From positions 1 through 64,000 of the forward strand of contig JAEERC010000041.1 in NCBI GenBank assembly GCA_016285645.1: a DNA stretch of 64,000 nucleotides. The letters run 5' to 3'. Below, in pieces: positions 13,059 through 27,355 of the stretch. This DNA is from Clostridiaceae bacterium. GTDB taxonomy: Bacteria > Bacillota > Clostridia > Oscillospirales > Acutalibacteraceae. Position numbers and translations under genes: made by a program. Under the pieces are notes generated by a model. It searched no databases. It was not told where the DNA came from and saw nothing but the letters and a program-made list of their open reading frames with translations. Every line of letters begins with the position of its first letter. Position 1 is the first letter of the stretch.

Positions 13059-14270
13059 ATGGCACTTATAGTTCAGAAATTCGGCGGCAGTTCCGTCAAG
13101 GATGCCGAGCGCGTGATGAATGTTGCGCGCATAGTCACAGACACATACAAAAACGGCAATCAGGTTGTTGTCGTGGTCTCCGCCCAGGGCGACACCACCG
13201 ATGACCTTATAGCGAAGGCGAAGGAGATAAACCCCGGCGCCTCCAAGCGCGAAATGGATATGCTTATGAGCGCGGGCGAGCAGATTTCAATAGCCCTTCT
13301 CGCGATGGCAATCGAAAAACTCGGCTGCCCCGCGAAATCGCTCCTCGGCTGGCAGGCGGGCTTCAACACGAACTCCGTTTACGGCAGCGCGAGAATCAAG
13401 AAGCTCGACACCCAGCGCATCAAAATGGAACTCGCCAACAGAAATATAGTCGTTGTGGCGGGCTTCCAGGGAATATGCAAATATGACGACATAACCACCC
13501 TCGGCAGAGGCGGCTCGGACACGAGCGCGGTTGCCATAGCCGCGGCGATGCACGCCGACAAATGCCAGATTTTCACCGATGTTGAAGGCGTTTTCACCGC
13601 CGACCCGCGCAAGATAAAGAACGCGAAGAAGCTTCAGGAAATCACCTACGACGAAATGCTCGAGCTCGCCACTCTCGGCGCGCAGGTGCTCAACAACCGC
13701 TCGGTTGAAATGGCGAAGAAATACAATGTTCAGCTTGAGGTGCTTTCAAGCTACACAAATAAACCCGGTACGATTGTCAAGGAGGTAACAAAAATGGAAA
13801 AAATGCTTATCAGAGGCGTAACAAAGGATACAGACGTAGCGAGAATCTCAATTATCGGCGTGCCCGATATCCCCGGCATCGCTTACAAGATTTTCGGCAA
13901 ACTCGCTTCCCAGAACATAAATGTTGACATCATCCTTCAGTCCGTCGGCAGAGACGGCACAAAGGATATCGCTTTCACCGTCAGCAAGGCGAACGGCCCC
14001 GCGGCGGTTGAACTGCTCGGCGGCTGCGACTTCCTTGACGGTCTCGCCATGAAGTGCGACACCGATGTTGCAAAGGTCAGCGTTGTGGGCGCGGGTATGG
14101 AAACACATCCCGGCACCGCCTCAACAATGTTCGAGGCGCTCTTTGACCGCGATATCAATATCCAGATGATTTCCACCAGCGAAATCAAAATCTCCGTTCT
14201 CATCGACGCGAAAGACGCGGACGACGCCGTCGCGGCGGTTCACAAGGCGTTCTTCCCCGAAGAGGACTGA
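13059..14270 (+). CDS. lysC: Aspartate kinase, alpha chain
   Basis: Catalyses ATP-dependent phosphorylation of aspartate, the first step to lysine, threonine and methionine. The 403 residues begin IVQKFGGSSV, contain LGRGGSDTSAVAIAAAM and FTDVEGVFTADPR, and end in two ACT domains (from about residue 255). The length fits the Bacillus aspartokinase II type. ATG 13059 follows GGGAGG. An internal in-frame start with a strong ribosome binding site is present at 13794. Its place directly after hom indicates coordinate control of the aspartate family. Confidence 0.97.
   Translation: MALIVQKFGGSSVKDAERVMNVARIVTDTYKNGNQVVVVVSAQGDTTDDLIAKAKEINPGASKREMDMLMSAGEQISIALLAMAIEKLGCPAKSLLGWQAGFNTNSVYGSARIKKLDTQRIKMELANRNIVVVAGFQGICKYDDITTLGRGGSDTSAVAIAAAMHADKCQIFTDVEGVFTADPRKIKNAKKLQEITYDEMLELATLGAQVLNNRSVEMAKKYNVQLEVLSSYTNKPGTIVKEVTKMEKMLIRGVTKDTDVARISIIGVPDIPGIAYKIFGKLASQNINVDIILQSVGRDGTKDIAFTVSKANGPAAVELLGGCDFLDGLAMKCDTDVAKVSVVGAGMETHPGTASTMFEALFDRDINIQMISTSEIKISVLIDAKDADDAVAAVHKAFFPEED
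13794..14270 (+). CDS. lysC: Aspartate kinase beta chain from an internal in-frame start
   Basis: Within lysC, AAGGAGG (13779-13785) stands 8 bases before an in-frame ATG at 13794, codon 246. The product would be 158 residues and consist only of the two ACT domains (MEKMLIRGVTKDTDVARISI onward). In Bacillus subtilis aspartokinase II the beta subunit is known to arise from such an internal start inside the same gene. Here the assignment is inferred from the ribosome binding site, the frame and the domain boundary. Confidence 0.7.
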   Translation: MEKMLIRGVTKDTDVARISIIGVPDIPGIAYKIFGKLASQNINVDIILQSVGRDGTKDIAFTVSKANGPAAVELLGGCDFLDGLAMKCDTDVAKVSVVGAGMETHPGTASTMFEALFDRDINIQMISTSEIKISVLIDAKDADDAVAAVHKAFFPEED

Positions 14271-14302: not shown

Positions 14303-14548
14303 ATGGAAACACGCGTTGCCATAATGGCGATAATAGTCGAAGACCCCGGTTGTGTTGAGGCGCTCAACGCCCTTCTTCACGAATACGGCGAATACATCAT
14401 CGGCAGAATGGGCATCCCCTACAAGGCAAAGGAGATAAACATCATCAGCATAGCCCTCGACGCCCCGCAGGATATAATCTCCGCGCTTTCGGGCAAAATC
14501 GGCAGGCTCGACAATGTCAGCGTAAAAATCGTATATTCAAACAAATAA
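14303..14548 (+). CDS. TM1266-type putative [FeFe]-hydrogenase system regulator
   Basis: An 81-residue protein of the small ACT-like/NikR-C-like family that is annotated as 'iron-only hydrogenase system regulator'. It begins METRVAIMAIIVED and contains the segment YIIGRMGIPYKAKEINIISIALDA, characteristic of that family. It lies 45 bases upstream of hydG, its usual neighbour. ATG 14303 follows CGGAGG. DNA binding has not been shown for this family to my knowledge, so 'regulator' is a name by association. It is probably on the hom-lysC transcript. Confidence 0.8.
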   Translation: METRVAIMAIIVEDPGCVEALNALLHEYGEYIIGRMGIPYKAKEINIISIALDAPQDIISALSGKIGRLDNVSVKIVYSNK

Positions 14549-14593: not shown

Positions 14594-16057
14594 ATGGCAG
14601 TTTATAATCCCAAATCACTCAAAGCGGAGGATTTCATCAACGATGAGGAAATCCGCCTGACGCTCGAATACGCGGAGCAGAACAAAAACAATGTCGAGTT
14701 AATCGACGAAATCCTCGAAAAGGCGCGCCCCGTCAAAAATGAAAACGGCGGCGGATGCACCTGCAGAGGGCTTACCCACCGTGAGGCGAGCGTGCTTCTC
14801 GCCTGCGAAATTCCCGAAAAGATTGAAAAAATGTACAAGGTAGCCGAGGAGATAAAGCTCGCCTTTTACGGCAACCGCATTGTTCTTTTCGCCCCGCTCT
14901 ACCTTTCAAACTACTGTGTCAACGGCTGTCTCTACTGCCCCTACCACCTCAAGAACAAGCACATCCCGCGCAAAAAACTCACTCAGGAGGAAGTGCGCGA
15001 GGAGGTCATAGCGCTTCAGGATTTAGGTCACAAACGCCTTGCGATTGAGGCGGGCGAGGATCCGGTCAACAACCCGATTGAGTACATCCTTGACTGCATC
15101 AACACGATTTACTCGGTTCACCATAAAAACGGCGACATCCGCAGGGTAAATGTCAACATCGCCGCCACAACGGTGGAAAACTACCGCAAGCTCAAGGAAG
15201 CGGGCATCGGCACATACATTCTTTTCCAGGAAACATACAATAAAGAGAGCTACGAATACCTGCACCCCACAGGCCCCAAGCACGATTACGCCTACCACAC
15301 CGAGGCAATGGACAGAGCCATGGACGGCGGCATAGACGATGTCGGTCTGGGCGTGCTCTTCGGGCTTGAGTCATATAAATACGAGTTCGCGGGTCTCATT
15401 ATGCACGCGGAACACCTCGAGGCGGTTCACGGCGTGGGTCCCCACACAATAAGCGTGCCGAGGGTAAAGCCCGCGGACGACATTGACCCCGACGAATTTG
15501 ACAATTCCATATCCGACGATATGTTCACGAAAATCGCCGCCTGCATACGCATAGCCGTTCCCTACACGGGTATGATTGTTTCCACCCGCGAAAACGAGCA
15601 GGTCCGCGCGAAGATGCTCAAAGTGGGCGTCTCCCAGGTCAGCGGCGGCTCGCGTACATCCGTGGGCGGCTACGCGGGCTACACTCCCGACGAACGCCCG
15701 CACGACACGGAGCAGTTCGATGTCAGCGACCAGCGCTCGCTCGACGAGGTTATCCACTGGCTCATTGACAACGGTCAGGTTCCCTCTTTCTGCACGGCTT
15801 GCTACCGCGAGGGCAGAACGGGCGACAGATTCATGTCGCTTTGCAAAAACGGTCAGATTCTCAACTGCTGCCACCCGAACGCCCTTATGACGCTCACCGA
15901 ATATCTCGTCGATTACGCCTCGCCCGAAACTAAAGAGGCGGGCTTCAGACTCATCGAAGAGGAATTGAAGCGCATTCCCAAGGACAAGGTCCGCGAAATC
16001 ACCGCTCAACACATTGAGGACATCAAAACCTCAGACAGCCGCGATTTCAGATTCTGA
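14594..16057 (+). CDS. hydG: [FeFe]-hydrogenase H-cluster maturase HydG
   Basis: Radical-SAM tyrosine lyase that makes the CO and CN ligands of the H-cluster. The 487 residues have the N-terminal radical-SAM cluster motif CVNGCLYC (CX3CX2C), and the C-terminal second-cluster motif CTACYREGRTGDRFMSLC with the following CC that separates HydG from the related thiamine enzyme ThiH. Conserved HydG stretches such as RKKLTQEEVREEV and SRTSVGGY are present. ATG 14594 is behind GAAAGGAAA. Its partners HydE and HydF are not in the window. It is the last gene of the operon after the TM1266-like gene. Confidence 0.95.
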   Translation: MAVYNPKSLKAEDFINDEEIRLTLEYAEQNKNNVELIDEILEKARPVKNENGGGCTCRGLTHREASVLLACEIPEKIEKMYKVAEEIKLAFYGNRIVLFAPLYLSNYCVNGCLYCPYHLKNKHIPRKKLTQEEVREEVIALQDLGHKRLAIEAGEDPVNNPIEYILDCINTIYSVHHKNGDIRRVNVNIAATTVENYRKLKEAGIGTYILFQETYNKESYEYLHPTGPKHDYAYHTEAMDRAMDGGIDDVGLGVLFGLESYKYEFAGLIMHAEHLEAVHGVGPHTISVPRVKPADDIDPDEFDNSISDDMFTKIAACIRIAVPYTGMIVSTRENEQVRAKMLKVGVSQVSGGSRTSVGGYAGYTPDERPHDTEQFDVSDQRSLDEVIHWLIDNGQVPSFCTACYREGRTGDRFMSLCKNGQILNCCHPNALMTLTEYLVDYASPETKEAGFRLIEEELKRIPKDKVREITAQHIEDIKTSDSRDFRF

Positions 16058-19682: not shown

Positions 19683-20768
19683 ATGTTCGAACTCAGAAAA
19701 TACCGCGCCCCCGATTTTACCGCGCTTCCGGACGCTCCCGACGCGGTTTTCGTGCCCGCTCCGCGTGACGGCGTTGCCCCCGAGGGCTATCACGCGATGA
19801 GCATTTATCCCGAATATTTCAAAATAAACGGCAGTTGGATTCTCGCGGAGGAGAGCCGTATGGACTGTGTCGCCGTGCTCGAAAACGGCGCTGTATCCGT
19901 GCGCGAGTTCCGCCACTTGAAGCAGGGCGATCCCGTTGCCGTGGGCAGAACGGAAAACGGCGAAAACGGCATTTTCGTGCACCCCTTCGGCTTTGAGGAA
20001 AAAAAGCAGTCCGGCGATGTCTTTGCCTTCCGCACGGGCCGCTCGCGTGAAACCTCCTTCTCCAAGGATTACGACGAGTTGTACCACCTCCTCGATTATG
20101 AGAGGGATCACGGCAAAATCGTATGGGTTATGGGCCCCGCCTTCAGCTTTGACTCCGACGCGCGCAAGGCGATGAGCAAGCTTATTGAAAACGGCTATGT
20201 CCACTCCGTTATAGCGGGCAACGCCCTTGCCACTCACGACCTTGAGGGCGCCTATCTGCACACCGCGCTCGGCCAGGATATCTACACCCAGGAGCCGGTT
20301 GAGAACGGCCACTACAACCACCTCGACACCATAAACCGCGTGCGCTATTACGGAAGCGTGCCCGAATTCATAAAAAACGAAAACATTAACGACGGCATAA
20401 TTTACAGCTGCGAAAAATACGGAGTGCCCTATGTGCTCGGCGGCTCCATACGCGATGACGGCCCCCTGCCCCCGGTTTACGGCAACGCCTACGAGGCGCA
20501 GGACGCCATGCGAAACGAAGTGCGAACAGCCACCACGGTAATCTGTATGGCGACCACCCTCCACACAATAGCCACGGGCAATATGACCCCCTCCTTCCGC
20601 GTTATGCCGGACGGCACAATCCGCCAGATTTATTTCTTCTGCGTCGATATTTCCGAGTTTGTCGTCAACAAACTCGCCGACCGCGGCAGCCTGAGCGCGA
20701 AGGGCATAGTCACCAATGTTCAGGATTTCATAGTAAACCTCGCGAAAGGTCTCGGTCTGACCTGGTGA
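19683..20768 (+). CDS. LOR/SDH-domain protein, archaeal-type ornithine cyclodeaminase-like
   Basis: A 361-residue protein. The C-terminal 230 residues match the conserved region of 'LOR/SDH bifunctional enzyme' proteins and the archaeal/cyanobacterial ornithine cyclodeaminase-type domain. Recognisable parts are VIAGNALATHDLEGA, the NHLDTINRVRYYGS segment, VPYVLGGSIRDDGPLP and EAQDAMRNEVR. In that family an NAD-linked reaction on ornithine or a related amino acid is known or proposed. The N-terminal 130 residues are less conserved. It stands alone with its own promoter and no arginine or proline genes nearby, so the substrate is uncertain. ATG 19683 has only a weak GGTGGT before it. Confidence 0.75.
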   Translation: MFELRKYRAPDFTALPDAPDAVFVPAPRDGVAPEGYHAMSIYPEYFKINGSWILAEESRMDCVAVLENGAVSVREFRHLKQGDPVAVGRTENGENGIFVHPFGFEEKKQSGDVFAFRTGRSRETSFSKDYDELYHLLDYERDHGKIVWVMGPAFSFDSDARKAMSKLIENGYVHSVIAGNALATHDLEGAYLHTALGQDIYTQEPVENGHYNHLDTINRVRYYGSVPEFIKNENINDGIIYSCEKYGVPYVLGGSIRDDGPLPPVYGNAYEAQDAMRNEVRTATTVICMATTLHTIATGNMTPSFRVMPDGTIRQIYFFCVDISEFVVNKLADRGSLSAKGIVTNVQDFIVNLAKGLGLTW

Positions 20769-20813: not shown

Positions 20814-20842
20814 TTGACAAAGGCGTTTTTTGGTGTTAATAT
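20814..20842 (+). promoter_or_regulatory. Consensus sigma-A promoter of the T-box transcript
   Basis: Perfect TTGACA (20814-20819), a 17-base spacer and TAATAT (20837-20842). Transcription should start near 20849, which gives a leader of about 315 bases before the coding region. Confidence 0.85.
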
Positions 20843-20849
20843 CATTTTC

Positions 20850-21130
20850 AATCGAATAACCAAAGGCGATGACGAAGACGGAAAAGGCGATGAAGTCTTA
20901 CAGAGAGCCGGGGGCGCTGAAATCCCGGCAGACGGATGTCTTTCTCCCATCACTTCCGAGCTGAGAATCTGAACACCTTGAGCAATTAGGGTTCTCCGAG
21001 AATGCTGCGTCAGTGCATAGGGCTTGTCAGAGCCCGAAGAGAGGCGCTTTTATGCGCAATTTGAGTGGTACCGCGGGTATCGGATGAATTTTCCGGCTCG
21101 TCTCAAAGCAATTTGAGACGGGTCTTTTTT
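20850..21130 (+). promoter_or_regulatory. T-box riboswitch leader
   Basis: Stem I features are present: AGAGAGCCGGG, a distal-loop segment CGCTGAAATCCCGG, and a stem III-like hairpin GGGCTT-GTCA-GAGCCC. The hallmark T-box AGTGGTACCGCGG is at 21064-21076. It is followed by a perfect terminator, CGTCTCAAA-GCAA-TTTGAGACG (21099-21120) and a run of T. T-boxes sense uncharged tRNA and allow read-through. The specifier triplet cannot be assigned with confidence, because the usual AGUA/GAA specifier-loop motif is degenerate here. The downstream gene is not an aminoacyl-tRNA synthetase, which is unusual. Confidence 0.9.
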
Positions 21131-21166
21131 TTCCCGCCTCAGAAAAAACCGAAAGGGGAAAGAAAA

Positions 21167-23434
21167 ATGAGTAATCTTGCAGCAATGACCGGCCTTAAGG
21201 CCACAGCGGGCAGAATCCGCGAAATGCGCGAAATCCTGGGCTACACTCCCGAGCAGATGGCGGAAATGACCGAGGTCACTCCCGAGGAGTACACCGCCTA
21301 TGAGTCGGGCGAGACCGACCTTCCGTTCACTTTTATCCACAAGTGCGCGCTCGCCTTCAACATCGACATCACAGCCCTTATCGAAGGCCGCACAACCCAC
21401 CTTGCCTCCTATACGGTAACGCGCAGGGGTCAGGGTCACAACACGGCGAAAGAGGCGGGCATTATGATAAACAACCTCGCCCCCAAGTTCAAAAGCAAAC
21501 TCGCCGAGCCGTATTTTGTCAAATACGACTACTCCGCCGAGCTTCAGAACAAGCCGATTCACACCACGAAGCACGCGGGTCAGGAGTTTGACTACATCGT
21601 CTCCGGCACACTGCTTGTGCAGGTCGGCTCAAACAAGGAAATCCTTCACGAGGGCGACAGCATTTTTTATGATTCCTCAACGCCCCACGGTATGATAGCC
21701 GTTGACGGAGCGGACTGCACCTTCCTCGCCGTCGTCATCCCCGGCGAAAAGGCGAAGGAGGCGGAAATCCGCCAGAGCGTTGCCGACGCGCGCCCCGCCA
21801 CGGGTCTTATTGTTGACAAATACGCGAAATGCGAGGAGGACGAAAACGGCGCCCTCAGGAGCATTCACTTTGAGAATATCGAAAAATACAACTTCGGCTT
21901 CGACTGTGTTGACGCCATAGCCGACAAATATCCCGACAAGCTCGCGATGATTCACCTCGATATGCAGGAGCAGGAGCGCCGCTTCACCTTCAAGCAGATA
22001 AAACAGGAGAGCGCGCGGGTCGCGAATTATTTTACGTCGCTCGGCATCGGCAAAGGCGACAGGGTAATGCTCGTTCTCAGGCGTCACTACCAGTTCTGGC
22101 TCTCGATGGTCGCCCTTCACAAAATCGGCGCGGTGGCGATTCCCGCCACCTTCCAGTTAAAGGAACACGATTTTGTTTACAGATATAACGCCGCACATGT
22201 CAAGGCGATTGTCTGCACCGCCTTCGGCGATACGGCTCAGATAGCCGAGGAGGCGGCAAAGCAGTGCCCGAGCGTTGAGCTCAAAATCCTTGTAGGCGGC
22301 GAGAGAGAGGGCTGGCGCGACTTTGACGCGGAATATCCGCTCTACAGCTCTCACTATTTCCGCACGGAGGACACCCCCGGCGGCAGCGACACCGCCCTCA
22401 TCTTCTTCTCATCGGGCACAACGGGCAACCCGAAAATGGTCGAACACCGCCACACCTACTCGCTCGGTCACTTCGTAACCGCGAAATACTGGCACTGCTG
22501 CCAGAAGGACGGCCTGCACTTCACAATGAGCGACACCGGCTGGGGCAAGGCGCTCTGGGGCAAGCTCTACGGCCAGTGGATGTGCGAAGGCGCGGTCTTC
22601 GTAAACGATGAAATCCGCTTCCATCCCGAGCAGGTTCTCCCGCTCTTCGCGAAATATCAGATAACCACCTTCTGCGCTCCCCCGACAATCCTCAGAATGC
22701 TTATTAAAGAGGACATCACCAAATACGATTTCTCCTCCGTCAAGCATATGACAACCGCGGGCGAGGCGCTCAACCCCGAGGTCGCCATAAGATTCAAGGA
22801 GGCGACCGGTCTCGACATTATGGAGGGCTTCGGTCAGACCGAAACCACCCTCGTTGTCGGCAATCTTATCGGCACGGCGGCTCGGCTCGGCTCAATGGGC
22901 AAGGCGAGCCCGCAGTACAACGTGGACCTTGTTGACCCGGACGGCAACCCTGTCGCTGTTGGCGAAACGGGCGAACTCGTGGTTCGCATTGACGAGGGCG
23001 ACCCTGTCGGTCTTTTCAAGCAGTATATCGACGAGGATGAGAAAAACGAGGAGTGCCGCAGGCAGAAGATGTACCACACGGGCGATACCGCCTGGCGTGA
23101 TGAGGACGGCTATTTCTGGTATGTCGGCAGAGTTGACGACATCATCAAGTCCTCGGGCTACCGCATCGGACCCTTTGAGATTGAAAGCGTTATAATGGAA
23201 CTGCCCTATGTTCTTGAGTGCGGTGTTTCCGCCGCTCCCGATGAGGTCAGAGGTCAGATAGTCAAGGCGTCCGTCGTGCTCACAAAGGGCACAGAGGGCA
23301 CAGAGGAACTCAAGAAAGAGATTCAGGACTATGTCAAAGCCCACACCGCCCCCTACAAATATCCCCGCCTCGTCGTCTTCCGCGACGAACTCCCCAAAAC
23401 CATCAGCGGCAAAATACAGAGGAATTTACTTTGA
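21167..23434 (+). CDS. XRE-cupin-AMP-dependent acyl-CoA synthetase fusion
   Basis: A 755-residue three-part protein. Residues about 10-74 are an XRE-type helix-turn-helix (GRIREMREILGYTPEQMAEM ... YESGETDLP). Residues about 85-190 are a cupin (HAGQEFDYIVSG, HEGDSIFYDSSTPHGM). From about 235 it is a complete adenylate-forming enzyme of the acyl-CoA synthetase type: P-loop FFSSGTTGNPK, TTAGEALNP, GFGQTE, YHTGD, GYRIGPFEIES, and the C-terminal catalytic Lys in ISGKIQRNLL. It should adenylate a carboxylic acid and pass it to CoA. ATG 21167 follows AGGGGAAAG. Control by the T-box upstream suggests a link to an amino acid or its 2-oxo/carboxylic derivative. The HTH may be regulatory or only structural. 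Confidence 0.85.
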   Translation: MSNLAAMTGLKATAGRIREMREILGYTPEQMAEMTEVTPEEYTAYESGETDLPFTFIHKCALAFNIDITALIEGRTTHLASYTVTRRGQGHNTAKEAGIMINNLAPKFKSKLAEPYFVKYDYSAELQNKPIHTTKHAGQEFDYIVSGTLLVQVGSNKEILHEGDSIFYDSSTPHGMIAVDGADCTFLAVVIPGEKAKEAEIRQSVADARPATGLIVDKYAKCEEDENGALRSIHFENIEKYNFGFDCVDAIADKYPDKLAMIHLDMQEQERRFTFKQIKQESARVANYFTSLGIGKGDRVMLVLRRHYQFWLSMVALHKIGAVAIPATFQLKEHDFVYRYNAAHVKAIVCTAFGDTAQIAEEAAKQCPSVELKILVGGEREGWRDFDAEYPLYSSHYFRTEDTPGGSDTALIFFSSGTTGNPKMVEHRHTYSLGHFVTAKYWHCCQKDGLHFTMSDTGWGKALWGKLYGQWMCEGAVFVNDEIRFHPEQVLPLFAKYQITTFCAPPTILRMLIKEDITKYDFSSVKHMTTAGEALNPEVAIRFKEATGLDIMEGFGQTETTLVVGNLIGTAARLGSMGKASPQYNVDLVDPDGNPVAVGETGELVVRIDEGDPVGLFKQYIDEDEKNEECRRQKMYHTGDTAWRDEDGYFWYVGRVDDIIKSSGYRIGPFEIESVIMELPYVLECGVSAAPDEVRGQIVKASVVLTKGTEGTEELKKEIQDYVKAHTAPYKYPRLVVFRDELPKTISGKIQRNLL

Positions 23435-23498: not shown

Positions 23499-23671
23499 GG
23501 GGTGCGGGTCTCCGGTGGGGGCGAAGCGTCGAAGCGCGTCCTGCGGACGAAACAGCGAGACGCTGAGGTGAGCAAACAGGAGAATTGCGAAGCGCTCCAA
23601 GCGAGCAAGGCGACCTGCGTTTGCGAGGGGGATAATCAGCCGAAAGCACCGACCGAGCCGGGAGGCGAGAC
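23499..23671 (+). repeat. Structured repeat, copy B with an enlarged central arm
   Basis: Starts GGGGTGCGGGTCTCCGGTGG and ends with GCACCGACCGAGCCGGGAGG plus CGAGAC, like the other copies. In place of the short second hairpin it carries about 115 bases of extra sequence. This marks the second hairpin as the place where the element tolerates change. Confidence 0.7.
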
Positions 23672-23798
23672 AACAAAGCGCCTTTTATATGTCCTTACGG
23701 ACGTCCCTGTTGCGGGCGACAGGTTGTAAGAACCTGCCTACGGCAGAACCTTGTTACTCGCGCCGCTCGTAATATGCCCCTACGTAATAACTGAGTTA

Positions 23799-23880
23799 TG
23801 TCATTCCGAGGGAGAAACTTGTTTCGACCGTGGGAATCTCCAAAAAAGATTGCCACGTCGCTTCGCTCCTCGCAATGACA
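23799..23880 (+). repeat. Short inverted-repeat element, 'CEERSDVAI' type, copy 1
   Basis: About 82 bases bounded by imperfect terminal inverted repeats: TGTCATTCCGAGG at the left and CCTCGCAATGACA at the right. Its reverse strand reads in one frame as CHCEERSDVAIFFGDSHG, a spurious peptide known from many genomes that marks this widespread non-coding element. Confidence 0.8.
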
Positions 23881-23923
23881 GAATCGTTTTATCGATTCTG
23901 AGTTCTTACGGATGTCTTGTTGC

Positions 23924-24008
23924 GGCGGGATTGGGGTGCGGGTCTCCGGTGGAGACCTTCGGCGAAGCCGAAAGCACCGACCGAGCCGGGAGGCGAGACC
24001 ATCCCGCC
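23924..24008 (+). repeat. Structured repeat, copy C
   Basis: Outer inverted repeat GGCGGGAT/ATCCCGCC encloses GGTCTCC-GGT-GGAGACC and a second hairpin TTCGGC-GAA-GCCGAA. Compared with copies D and E, both arms of the second hairpin differ but still pair, so the pairing itself appears to be kept. Confidence 0.85.
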
Positions 24009-24125
24009 CTACGGTGTAAATGAAGTTCGTGTGAACAGGCGGGCGACAGGTTGTAAGAACCTGCCTACGGCAGAACCTTGTTACTCGCGCTGCTCGTAAT
24101 ATGCCCCTACGTAATAACTGAGTTA

Positions 24126-24207
24126 TGTCATTCCGAGGGAGAAACTTGTTTCGACCGTGGGAATCTCCAAAAAAGATTGCCACGTCGCTTTGCTCCTCGC
24201 AATGACA
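24126..24207 (+). repeat. Short inverted-repeat element, 'CEERSDVAI' type, copy 2
   Basis: Near-identical to 23799-23880; it lies in the second unit of the 327-base duplication. Confidence 0.8.
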
Positions 24208-24250
24208 GAATCGTTTTATCGATTCTGAGTTCTTACGGACGTCTTGTTGC

Positions 24251-24335
24251 GGCGGGATTGGGGTGCGGGTCTCCGGTGGAGACCTCTGCCGCAGGCAGAA
24301 GCACCGACCGAGCCGGGAGGCGAGACCATCCCGCC
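24251..24335 (+). repeat. Structured repeat, copy D
   Basis: Outer inverted repeat GGCGGGAT/ATCCCGCC, first hairpin GGTCTCC-GGT-GGAGACC, second hairpin TCTGCC-GCA-GGCAGA. Identical in plan and nearly in sequence to copy E at 54829-54913. It truncates the minus-strand fragment at 24336-24428. Confidence 0.85.
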
Positions 24336-25528: not shown

Positions 25529-25670
25529 GGGCTTTGTTTGGGACATAAGACGGCAGGTCCTGCACGGCGAAGCGCCGTGAACCATGTCAGGCGGGGAACC
25601 GAGCAGCATTAAGCGGGCCGTTTTGTGCGATGCAGTTCGCCTGCCGCCTTATGTCCGAGGCAGAGCCCTT
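25529..25670 (+). ncRNA. ffs: Signal recognition particle RNA (bacterial SRP RNA)
   Basis: The domain IV core is clear: ATGTCAGGCGGGGAACCGAG followed by CAGCATTAAGC, with the GGAA-type loop and the asymmetric bulge that binds Ffh. The 5' segment GGGCTTTG pairs with the 3' segment AGAGCCC, and GGACATAAG pairs with CTTATGTCC, so the molecule is a rod of about 140 bases that ends at a T-run (25669-25673). Location just upstream of dnaX is the usual one in Firmicutes. Confidence 0.9.
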
Positions 25671-25696
25671 TTTATTTTACTTTTCAGGGGATTATT

Positions 25697-27355
25697 ATGT
25701 ATCAGGCGCTTTACAGAAAATGGAGACCGGGAAAATTCAGCGAAGTGTCCGGCCAGCCGCAGGTCACCCTCACGCTTTTAAACGAGCTAAGGGGCGGCAG
25801 GGTCTCGCACGCCTATCTTTTCACCGGCTCGCGCGGAACGGGCAAAACCTCCTGCGCGAAAATTCTCGCCAAAGCGGTCAACTGTGAAAGCCCCATTGAC
25901 GGCGAACCCTGCGGTCAATGCGAACTCTGCCGTATGGCGGACGACGGCTCCGCCCCCGATATCTACGAAATCGACGCGGCCTCCAACAACGGCGTTGACA
26001 ACATCCGCGACATCCGCGAGGAGGTAAATATCACTCCCCTTCGCGGCAAATACCGCGTGTATATAATCGATGAGGTTCACATGCTCTCACAGGGCGCGTT
26101 CAACGCCCTGCTCAAAACCCTTGAGGAGCCCCCCGCCCATGTTATATTCATCCTCGCCACAACCGAGGTTCACAAACTCCCCGCTACCGTGCTTTCGCGC
26201 TGCCAGCGCTTTGATTTCAAGCGCATCTCCCCCGAGGATATTTCGGCGCGCCTTATTCAGATAGCCGAAGGCGAGGGCGTAAAAATCACCACAGACGCGG
26301 CTGCACTCATTGCCCGTCTTGCGGACGGCGGCATGCGCGACGCTGTTTCGCTGCTTGACCGCTGCTGCGCCAGGGGCACGGATATAGACTCCTCCGTTGT
26401 AAGCAGCGCCGCGGGCATAGCGGGCACAAGGCACCTTTTTGAAATGTCCGGCTATATCTCAAAGGGCGACACTCCCGCCTGCATCTCGCTTGTTGACACC
26501 CTCCACCGCGAGGCGTGCGACATTGAAAGCCTGTGCACGGAGCTGACCGTACACTACCGCAATCTTATGATTGCCAAAACCGTAAAAAACTGCGCCGATC
26601 TCATAATCGTCTCAGCCGATGAGCTCAACGAATTAAAACAGCGCTCGTCCGAATACAAACTCTCAAAAATCCTCTCCTGTCTCGACATTCTTCAGGAGAC
26701 GGGCAAAAGCATAAAGGGCGCCGTAAACAAAAAGATTCTTCTCGAGTCCGCGGTTATCCGTATGTGCTCGCCCGCTCTCTCCGCTTCGGACAATGTTCTG
26801 AATCAGAGAATATCCGAACTCGAAAAAGAGATTGAAAACCTCAAAAAAATGATTTCGGGCGGCACGGTGAAAATCGAGAAATCCCCGGCCCCTGCTGTAA
26901 ATGAGGAAACTCCCGCCGAAAAAGCGGAAACCCCCGCGGAAGAAAGTCCTGCTCCCGTTAAAAATAACGAACCGGAGACCTTTTCCGAGGAAGCGAATGA
27001 AAAAGTCGAAGAATCCGCCTCCCCCGAACCTCAGCAGGAAGCGGAAAACGGCGATTTCACCCTCTGGCAGAACGCGGTTGACCTTCTTCAGAAAAACGAT
27101 ATGCCGCTCTATATGATGCTAAAAGACACCTCCGCCACGGTAATAAACGGCGAAAGTCTCATAATCCACACTGACAATGTGCTGCTTCATCAGTTCATTA
27201 TGGGCGAATCGCACGCAAGGGAGCTTATGATAGCGATTCATCAGGTGACCGGCAAAAAATACAAATTGAAAATAGACGACAAAACTGCAAAAAAAGAAAA
27301 AGCGAAAAACCCGCTTGAGGATTTAAAGAATAAAATAAACCAATTCAATTCCTGA
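25697..27355 (+). CDS. dnaX: DNA polymerase III subunits gamma/tau (clamp loader)
   Basis: ATPase of the clamp loader that opens the beta clamp. 552 residues: MYQALYRKWRPGKFSEVSGQ, Walker A GSRGTGKTS, a four-Cys zinc module (C ... CGQCELC), Walker B YIIDEVHML, SRC motif LSRCQRFDF, then clamp-loader domain III, a Pro/Glu-rich linker (about 395-450), and a C-terminal tau-like domain. Start ATG 25697 follows CAGGGGA; the longer frame begins inside the SRP RNA. No typical frameshift signal for a short gamma form was noticed. Followed by ybaB and recR, as in most Firmicutes. Confidence 0.97.
   Translation: MYQALYRKWRPGKFSEVSGQPQVTLTLLNELRGGRVSHAYLFTGSRGTGKTSCAKILAKAVNCESPIDGEPCGQCELCRMADDGSAPDIYEIDAASNNGVDNIRDIREEVNITPLRGKYRVYIIDEVHMLSQGAFNALLKTLEEPPAHVIFILATTEVHKLPATVLSRCQRFDFKRISPEDISARLIQIAEGEGVKITTDAAALIARLADGGMRDAVSLLDRCCARGTDIDSSVVSSAAGIAGTRHLFEMSGYISKGDTPACISLVDTLHREACDIESLCTELTVHYRNLMIAKTVKNCADLIIVSADELNELKQRSSEYKLSKILSCLDILQETGKSIKGAVNKKILLESAVIRMCSPALSASDNVLNQRISELEKEIENLKKMISGGTVKIEKSPAPAVNEETPAEKAETPAEESPAPVKNNEPETFSEEANEKVEESASPEPQQEAENGDFTLWQNAVDLLQKNDMPLYMMLKDTSATVINGESLIIHTDNVLLHQFIMGESHARELMIAIHQVTGKKYKLKIDDKTAKKEKAKNPLEDLKNKINQFNS

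Follow-up and report, generated by a model that had tools for sequence, protein, structure and literature searches.

What does a T-box leader control when the gene behind it is not one for an aminoacyl-tRNA synthetase? This question is raised by a locus within the 64,000-nt stretch of DNA analysed here (hereinafter, the window; the start of contig JAEERC010000041.1 of a Clostridiaceae bacterium from gut or rumen, GCA_016285645.1), where, as a first-pass annotation had proposed, a promoter, a T-box leader with the hallmark core and a terminator precede a gene for a 755-residue protein fusing an XRE-type helix-turn-helix (HTH), a cupin and an AMP-forming ligase (Table 1). All these elements were confirmed, and the fusion held: HTH_19, Cupin_2, AMP-binding and AMP-binding_C each scored over the Pfam cut-off and were the only domains matched, the catalytic domain of an aminoacyl-tRNA synthetase being absent.

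Table 1. Features of the T-box–ligase locus, in window coordinates
Feature	Coordinates	Strand	Basis
Sigma-70-type promoter, TTGACA-17-TAATAT, extended -10 (TG ahead of -10)	20814..20842	+	Sequence scan
T-box leader: Stem I, Stem III, antiterminator	20860..21108	+	RF00230 covariance match and covariation
Specifier codon AUC (Ile)	20949..20951	+	Conservation and register from own-genome T-boxes
T-box core AGTGGTACCGCGG, exact	21064..21076	+	
UGGU bulge, pairs with tRNA acceptor end ACCA	21066-21069	+	Within T-box core
Intrinsic terminator, stem of 13 pairs (21095-21124) then T8	21095..21132	+	
Ribosome binding site AAAGGGGA	21152..21159	+	Sequence
HTH-cupin-acyl-CoA ligase, 755 aa, predicted 2-methylbutyrate--CoA ligase	21167..23434	+	
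XRE-type helix-turn-helix, residues 16-74	21212..21388	+	PF12844, PF01381
Cupin, residues 134-190	21566..21736	+	PF07883
AMP-forming acyl-CoA ligase domains, residues 251-749	21917..23413	+	PF00501, PF13193; alignment to 3etc
Hairpin GGACGG-CGACG-CCGTCC and T-run, immediately 3' of ligase stop codon	23442..23464	+	Sequence

The leader matches the T-box model RF00230 over its entire length (model positions 1-219 of 219) with 84.5 bits, corresponding to E-values of 6.6e-19 for the stretch and 7.4e-19 for the whole genome. Because this score lies under the curated Rfam gate of 93 bits, the default Rfam scan of the window missed the leader and reported the SRP RNA alone; three other T-boxes of the same genome likewise fall under the gate. 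The core sequence, AGTGGTACCGCGG, has no other exact copy within the window, and a T-box core was found upstream of 155 of the 162 homologous ligase genes for which at least 420 nt of upstream sequence were available. Upon inspection, at least two of the seven exceptions carry slightly altered cores and others lie directly behind another gene. The UGGU bulge is kept in all 159 leaders (159/159), and among 30 aligned homologous leaders compensatory changes, whereby a pair is kept though both of its sides have changed, are seen at 18 of the 36 consensus pairs. The terminator and the antiterminator compete for positions 21097-21107, and a TTGACA-type promoter occupies the equivalent position in nearly all homologous leaders listed. 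The leader is a genuine transcriptional T-box attached to the ligase gene beyond chance; its response to uncharged tRNA is inferred.

Since the hairpin and T-run directly follow the stop codon, the ligase gene is taken as monocistronic in the window, an inference from sequence alone; the stem was seen by reading the sequence and is absent from the terminator-scan listing. Directly upstream of the promoter, positions 19683-20768 encode a variant nickel-pincer-nucleotide-dependent ornithine cyclodeaminase (NF052526, 615 bits), and just downstream of the ligase gene a 297-nt unit is repeated in tandem (23712-24335; two copies, 97% identity, spacing 327), a further partial copy lying at 23638. Elsewhere in the window, the small SRP RNA (25551-25649) stands directly before genes assigned from their translations as dnaX-like (25625-27355), recR-like and dnaN-like. 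The window also encodes HydG, the [FeFe]-hydrogenase maturase (14594-16057; 903 bits), preceded by an aspartate kinase gene (13059-14270) and a small ORF (14303-14548); the presence of HydG makes a source or sink of reduced ferredoxin likely in the cell.

The specifier had been regarded in the first-pass annotation as degenerate and the tRNA as open, with a covariance search against the Rfam T-box model and specifier prediction suggested as a check. The former gave the RF00230 match of 84.5 bits and the latter a readable isoleucine codon, AUC, so that this part of the annotation failed. AUC is found in 97 of 97 leaders of the window ligase type, even though the search pattern left the specifier triplet unconstrained, and the flanking bases vary (C, T or A before; C, A or G after). 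The alternative frames, CAU/UAU or UCA/UCC, were ruled out, given that AUC is constant and the bases on either side are variable. The register (triplet, one base, five bases, GAG) was calibrated on five T-boxes of the same genome (Ala, Trp, Leu, Cys and Phe), where the triplet so read is GCC for alaS, UGG for a TrpB-like gene, CUC for a LeuA-like one, UGC for cysE-cysS (in which CGG takes the place of GAG) and UUC in a leader whose gene is lost at the contig end; this spacing does not hold for the thrS leader of the genome, the helix of which is longer. Our register concurs with TBDB, which places the specifier at positions 2-4 counted from the loop's 3' end, and AUC constitutes 99% of the Ile specifiers in TBDB (PMC7778990). 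As in the Ile-class T-boxes (RF00230) before ileS or ilv operons, Stem I presents AUC, the bulge is UGGU and a terminator alternates with an antiterminator; instead of a synthetase, a transporter or the acetohydroxyacid pathway, however, the window leader governs an acyl-CoA ligase. No tRNA-Ile(GAU) was present among the tRNA loci recovered in the draft genome, the gene probably residing in a missing rRNA operon. The leader is likely to be specific for tRNA-Ile, as inferred from sequence.

The codon tracks the protein. Leaders of the other ligase clade (n = 53) carry GUA (46), GUC (6) or GUG (1), all of them valine codons, indicating that synonymous codons have been exchanged. In a tree built from the ligase proteins only, the two sides correspond to the Ile versus Val codon in 144 of 144 genes, with a support of 99 and a single change. 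The genome carries one ligase of each clade, the Val-type paralogue (G000:C66:37580-39841) being 59% identical to the window ligase and located directly behind its own T-box; tRNA-Val(UAC) with A73 was recovered from the genome. At the thresholds used, the sole position of the ligase domain that splits the clades is residue 460, next to Lys461 and Trp464 of the pocket, where 94 of 95 Ile-type genes, like MacS, have Gly and all 33 Val-type genes covering the position have Ala. Conceivably, the larger Ala would suit a smaller acid, isobutyrate, although residues specific to the two clades could have been fixed by descent alone. Action of the Val-type paralogue on isobutyrate, for valine, appears likely, its substrate being inferred.

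As to the chemistry, the PDB chain closest to the ligase is 3etc (E = 7e-178, aligned over 514 residues), which we take to be MacS of Methanosarcina acetivorans, an enzyme that favours 2-methylbutyrate (PMC10455477). Alignment to 3etc places G460, K461, W464 and G556 in the pocket and reveals the Macs signature, namely, Trp464, equivalent to MacS Trp259, and Gly556 at the position of Acs Trp416, both residues being present in every homologue that covers them; homologues also conserve the catalytic K749 and the tyrosines of the CoA site. Thus, the two proteins share the ligase domain, the Trp259 and Gly pocket signature, the CoA-site tyrosines and the catalytic lysine, whereas MacS is archaeal and lacks the HTH-cupin fusion. 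The top NCBIfam model is MbcS of Staphylococcus aureus (NF047394; 436.2 bits), the substrates of which are 2-methylbutyrate and isobutyrate (PMC10026030), the same as those predicted here. However, the equivalog cut-off of 850 bits is not reached, so the ligase is a relative of MbcS rather than a member of the family and, furthermore, MbcS supplies fatty-acid synthesis. Activation of 2-methylbutyrate by the window ligase is the likely prediction, with no enzyme data available and the activity inferred.

Operon partners suggest where the resulting acyl-CoA might go. The usual order in relatives (80 loci) is LIG[AUC]-LIG[GUN]-(BCAT)-P-loop ATPase-VorB-POR beta-POR gamma, where LIG is the ligase and BCAT the branched-chain aminotransferase; representatives from these operons scored 543.8 bits for VorB and 396 bits for ilvE_II, both over the cut-off. 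One cultured carrier, Erysipelotrichaceae bacterium NK3D112 (L093), has the arrangement LIG[AUC]-LIG[GUC]-VOR. In the genome under study, the window ligase, its paralogue and the VOR operon are spread over three contigs, such that the operon link rests on the relatives; contig C12 carries the BCAT-ATPase-VOR operon, although BCAT apparently begins on C31. The P-loop ATPase, a CbiA/ParA-like protein of ~220 aa (L135:9180-9869 in the genome under study; L084:6512-7171 and 42 more loci), is usually found between the ligases or the aminotransferase and VorB. Its role is unknown; it might, possibly, insert a cofactor or a cluster. A further T-box, specific for Leu (CUC), stands ahead of a LeuA-like synthase (L002; G000:C48:4109-4343), and in two relatives (L011/L012) a LeuA-like synthase with a Leu T-box lies directly behind the Ile ligase; it is possible that this gene extends 2-oxoisovalerate toward leucine.

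The canonical genes tell a complementary story. No ilvD was detectable in this genome, no genuine ilvC was found (best score 19.8 bits versus about 250-270 in true carriers) and no ilvA exceeded the cut-off (70.7 versus 378.75 bits), with the caveat that the genome is a draft, 97.9% complete, in which a gene counted absent could have been missed. Consequently, isoleucine would be either made by the carboxylation route or imported. Across 59 relatives, the fused ligase is present in 36 of the 43 without ilvD versus 6 of the 16 with ilvD (Fisher p 0.001); the two genes tend to avoid each other, the exception being the six ilvD-positive relatives that carry the fused ligase.

The overall reading that we consider likely is a tRNA-controlled ligase serving the synthesis of isoleucine from 2-methylbutyrate, and of valine from isobutyrate, via reductive carboxylation. 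When isoleucine is short, uncharged tRNA-Ile would be bound at two points, AUC pairing with its anticodon and UGGU with its ACCA end; the antiterminator would form and transcription would continue into the ligase gene. The ligase would then convert 2-methylbutyrate, a fermentation product of isoleucine released by other bacteria, into 2-methylbutyryl-CoA, which a ferredoxin-dependent VorB-type oxidoreductase would carboxylate reductively to 3-methyl-2-oxopentanoate, the substrate from which the branched-chain aminotransferase would produce isoleucine; a parallel path from isobutyrate to valine would involve the paralogue with the Val T-box. Of this scheme, the sequence data establish the T-box and its codons, the agreement between codon and ligase clade, the genes sharing the operon in sister genomes, the presence of VOR and aminotransferase genes in this genome and the failure to detect ilvC, ilvD or ilvA there; which substrates are used, which way the oxidoreductase runs and whether uncharged tRNA triggers the switch are matters of inference. 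The first-pass inference that a CoA ligase under T-box control points to an amino-acid-linked carboxylic acid pathway sensing starvation is hence supported and narrowed to Ile tRNA, 2-methylbutyrate and isoleucine synthesis, whereas its statement that this is not a known amino-acid biosynthesis gene needs correction, the gene being best seen as a biosynthesis gene of a non-canonical route.

The chemistry of this route has precedents. Rumen anaerobes and Methanobrevibacter convert 2-methylbutyrate to isoleucine and isobutyrate to valine (PMC2812497; PMC7356843), and for rumen bacteria reductive carboxylation leading to Ile, Val and Leu has been on record since 1969-71 (Robinson and Allison 1969; Allison and Peel 1971, cited in PMC2812497 and PMC7356843). 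The sequence of acid, CoA ester, CO2 plus reduced ferredoxin, 2-oxoacid and amino acid is shared; what differs is that a ligase pair under tRNA-specific control is proposed here for step one. No report joining a T-box with this ligase or route was found in the accessible literature searched, but subscription papers (e.g. Vitreschak 2008) were outside this search and priority could not be fully judged.

Several other explanations deserve consideration. First, 2-methylbutyryl-CoA might prime branched-chain fatty acids, the Ile T-box merely reporting scarcity of the usual precursor. In favour of this possibility, the best NCBIfam match is MbcS, the known role of which in S. aureus is such priming (PMC10026030). 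However, the sister operons include BCAT and a VorB-type oxidoreductase, enzymes on the path from an acyl-CoA to an amino acid, the undetected ilvC, ilvD and ilvA leave isoleucine to this route or import, and the paralogue bears a Val T-box, making the priming scenario very unlikely. Equally improbable is activation of propionate or another short acid, with the derived 2-oxobutyrate feeding isoleucine synthesis: although related acyl-CoA synthetases adenylate various short acids (PMC10455477), the passage from 2-oxobutyrate to isoleucine requires IlvC and IlvD, which were not found in the genome. We give as little credence to a catabolic operon, in which the oxidoreductase would degrade branched 2-oxoacids and the ligase would run in reverse. 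The 2-oxoacid:ferredoxin oxidoreductases are reversible, but a T-box turns genes on when charged tRNA is scarce, which is the wrong sign for catabolism, and the separate HTH-cupin and ligase genes of relatives, possibly catabolic, lack a T-box. Finally, an orphan T-box left by a deleted aminoacyl-tRNA synthetase and without regulatory bond to the ligase, which the first-pass annotation had named as what would refute it, is all but excluded and was rejected despite synthetases being the commonest genes behind T-boxes (PMC2494555), as the core is conserved across species at 155 of 162 homologues, the stems covary and the specifier switches with the ligase paralogue.

The fused N-terminal region remains to be accounted for. 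Fused ligases are rare in a 300-genome sample of the phylum, most relatives either encoding the HTH-cupin separately, ahead of the ligase, or carrying just the ligase. Among the loci examined, the T-box was found only at those with fused ligases and not at those with separate HTH-cupin and ligase genes, so that the fusion and the RNA switch seem to come as a pair in this lineage. The HTH and cupin folds, but not their mutual placement, are backed by an AlphaFold model of residues 1-224 (pLDDT 80.5, pTM 0.54), and the best match to the HTH-cupin model is HppE (E = 1.9e-14). Like HppE (1zz9, 2bnm), an HTH-cupin Fe(II) epoxidase, and the Vibrio regulator 1y9q, the window protein has the HTH-then-cupin order and the same placement of the His-x3-Glu...His set; unlike them, it is fused to a ligase. 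H136, E140 and H174, which align with the metal-ligand places of HppE, are invariant in 153 of 153 homologues. Accordingly, the 2-His-1-Glu set of an HppE-type metal site is present in the cupin at the sequence level, with metal binding inferred. An O2-dependent epoxidase is an unlikely function, given that the organism was judged anaerobic from its gene content. No palindromic HTH operator was noticed near the promoter when homologous leaders were viewed by eye, without a formal motif search, only the promoter being conspicuous. A bolder reading, offered tentatively and as one joint claim against which the balance still tips, holds that the HTH-cupin would be a metal-binding sensor of the acid or acyl-CoA, rendering the ligase self-regulating; that two layers of control would operate, tRNA charging through the T-box and the substrate or metal state through the protein's own DNA-binding domain; and that the specifier codon would label the acid of each ligase, the pair supplying the hitherto missing entry reaction through which bacteria of the gut and rumen obtain isoleucine and valine from branched volatile fatty acids.

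The need of rumen organisms for branched volatile fatty acids as precursors of Ile, Val and Leu has been known for more than 50 years, and isoacids have been studied as feed additives. Specific genes, a regulator and an RNA-readable prediction of substrates can now be offered for the activation step, in a lineage that seemingly depends on it. More generally, reading the T-box codon offers a way to assign substrates to enzyme paralogues for which comparing sequences was not enough.
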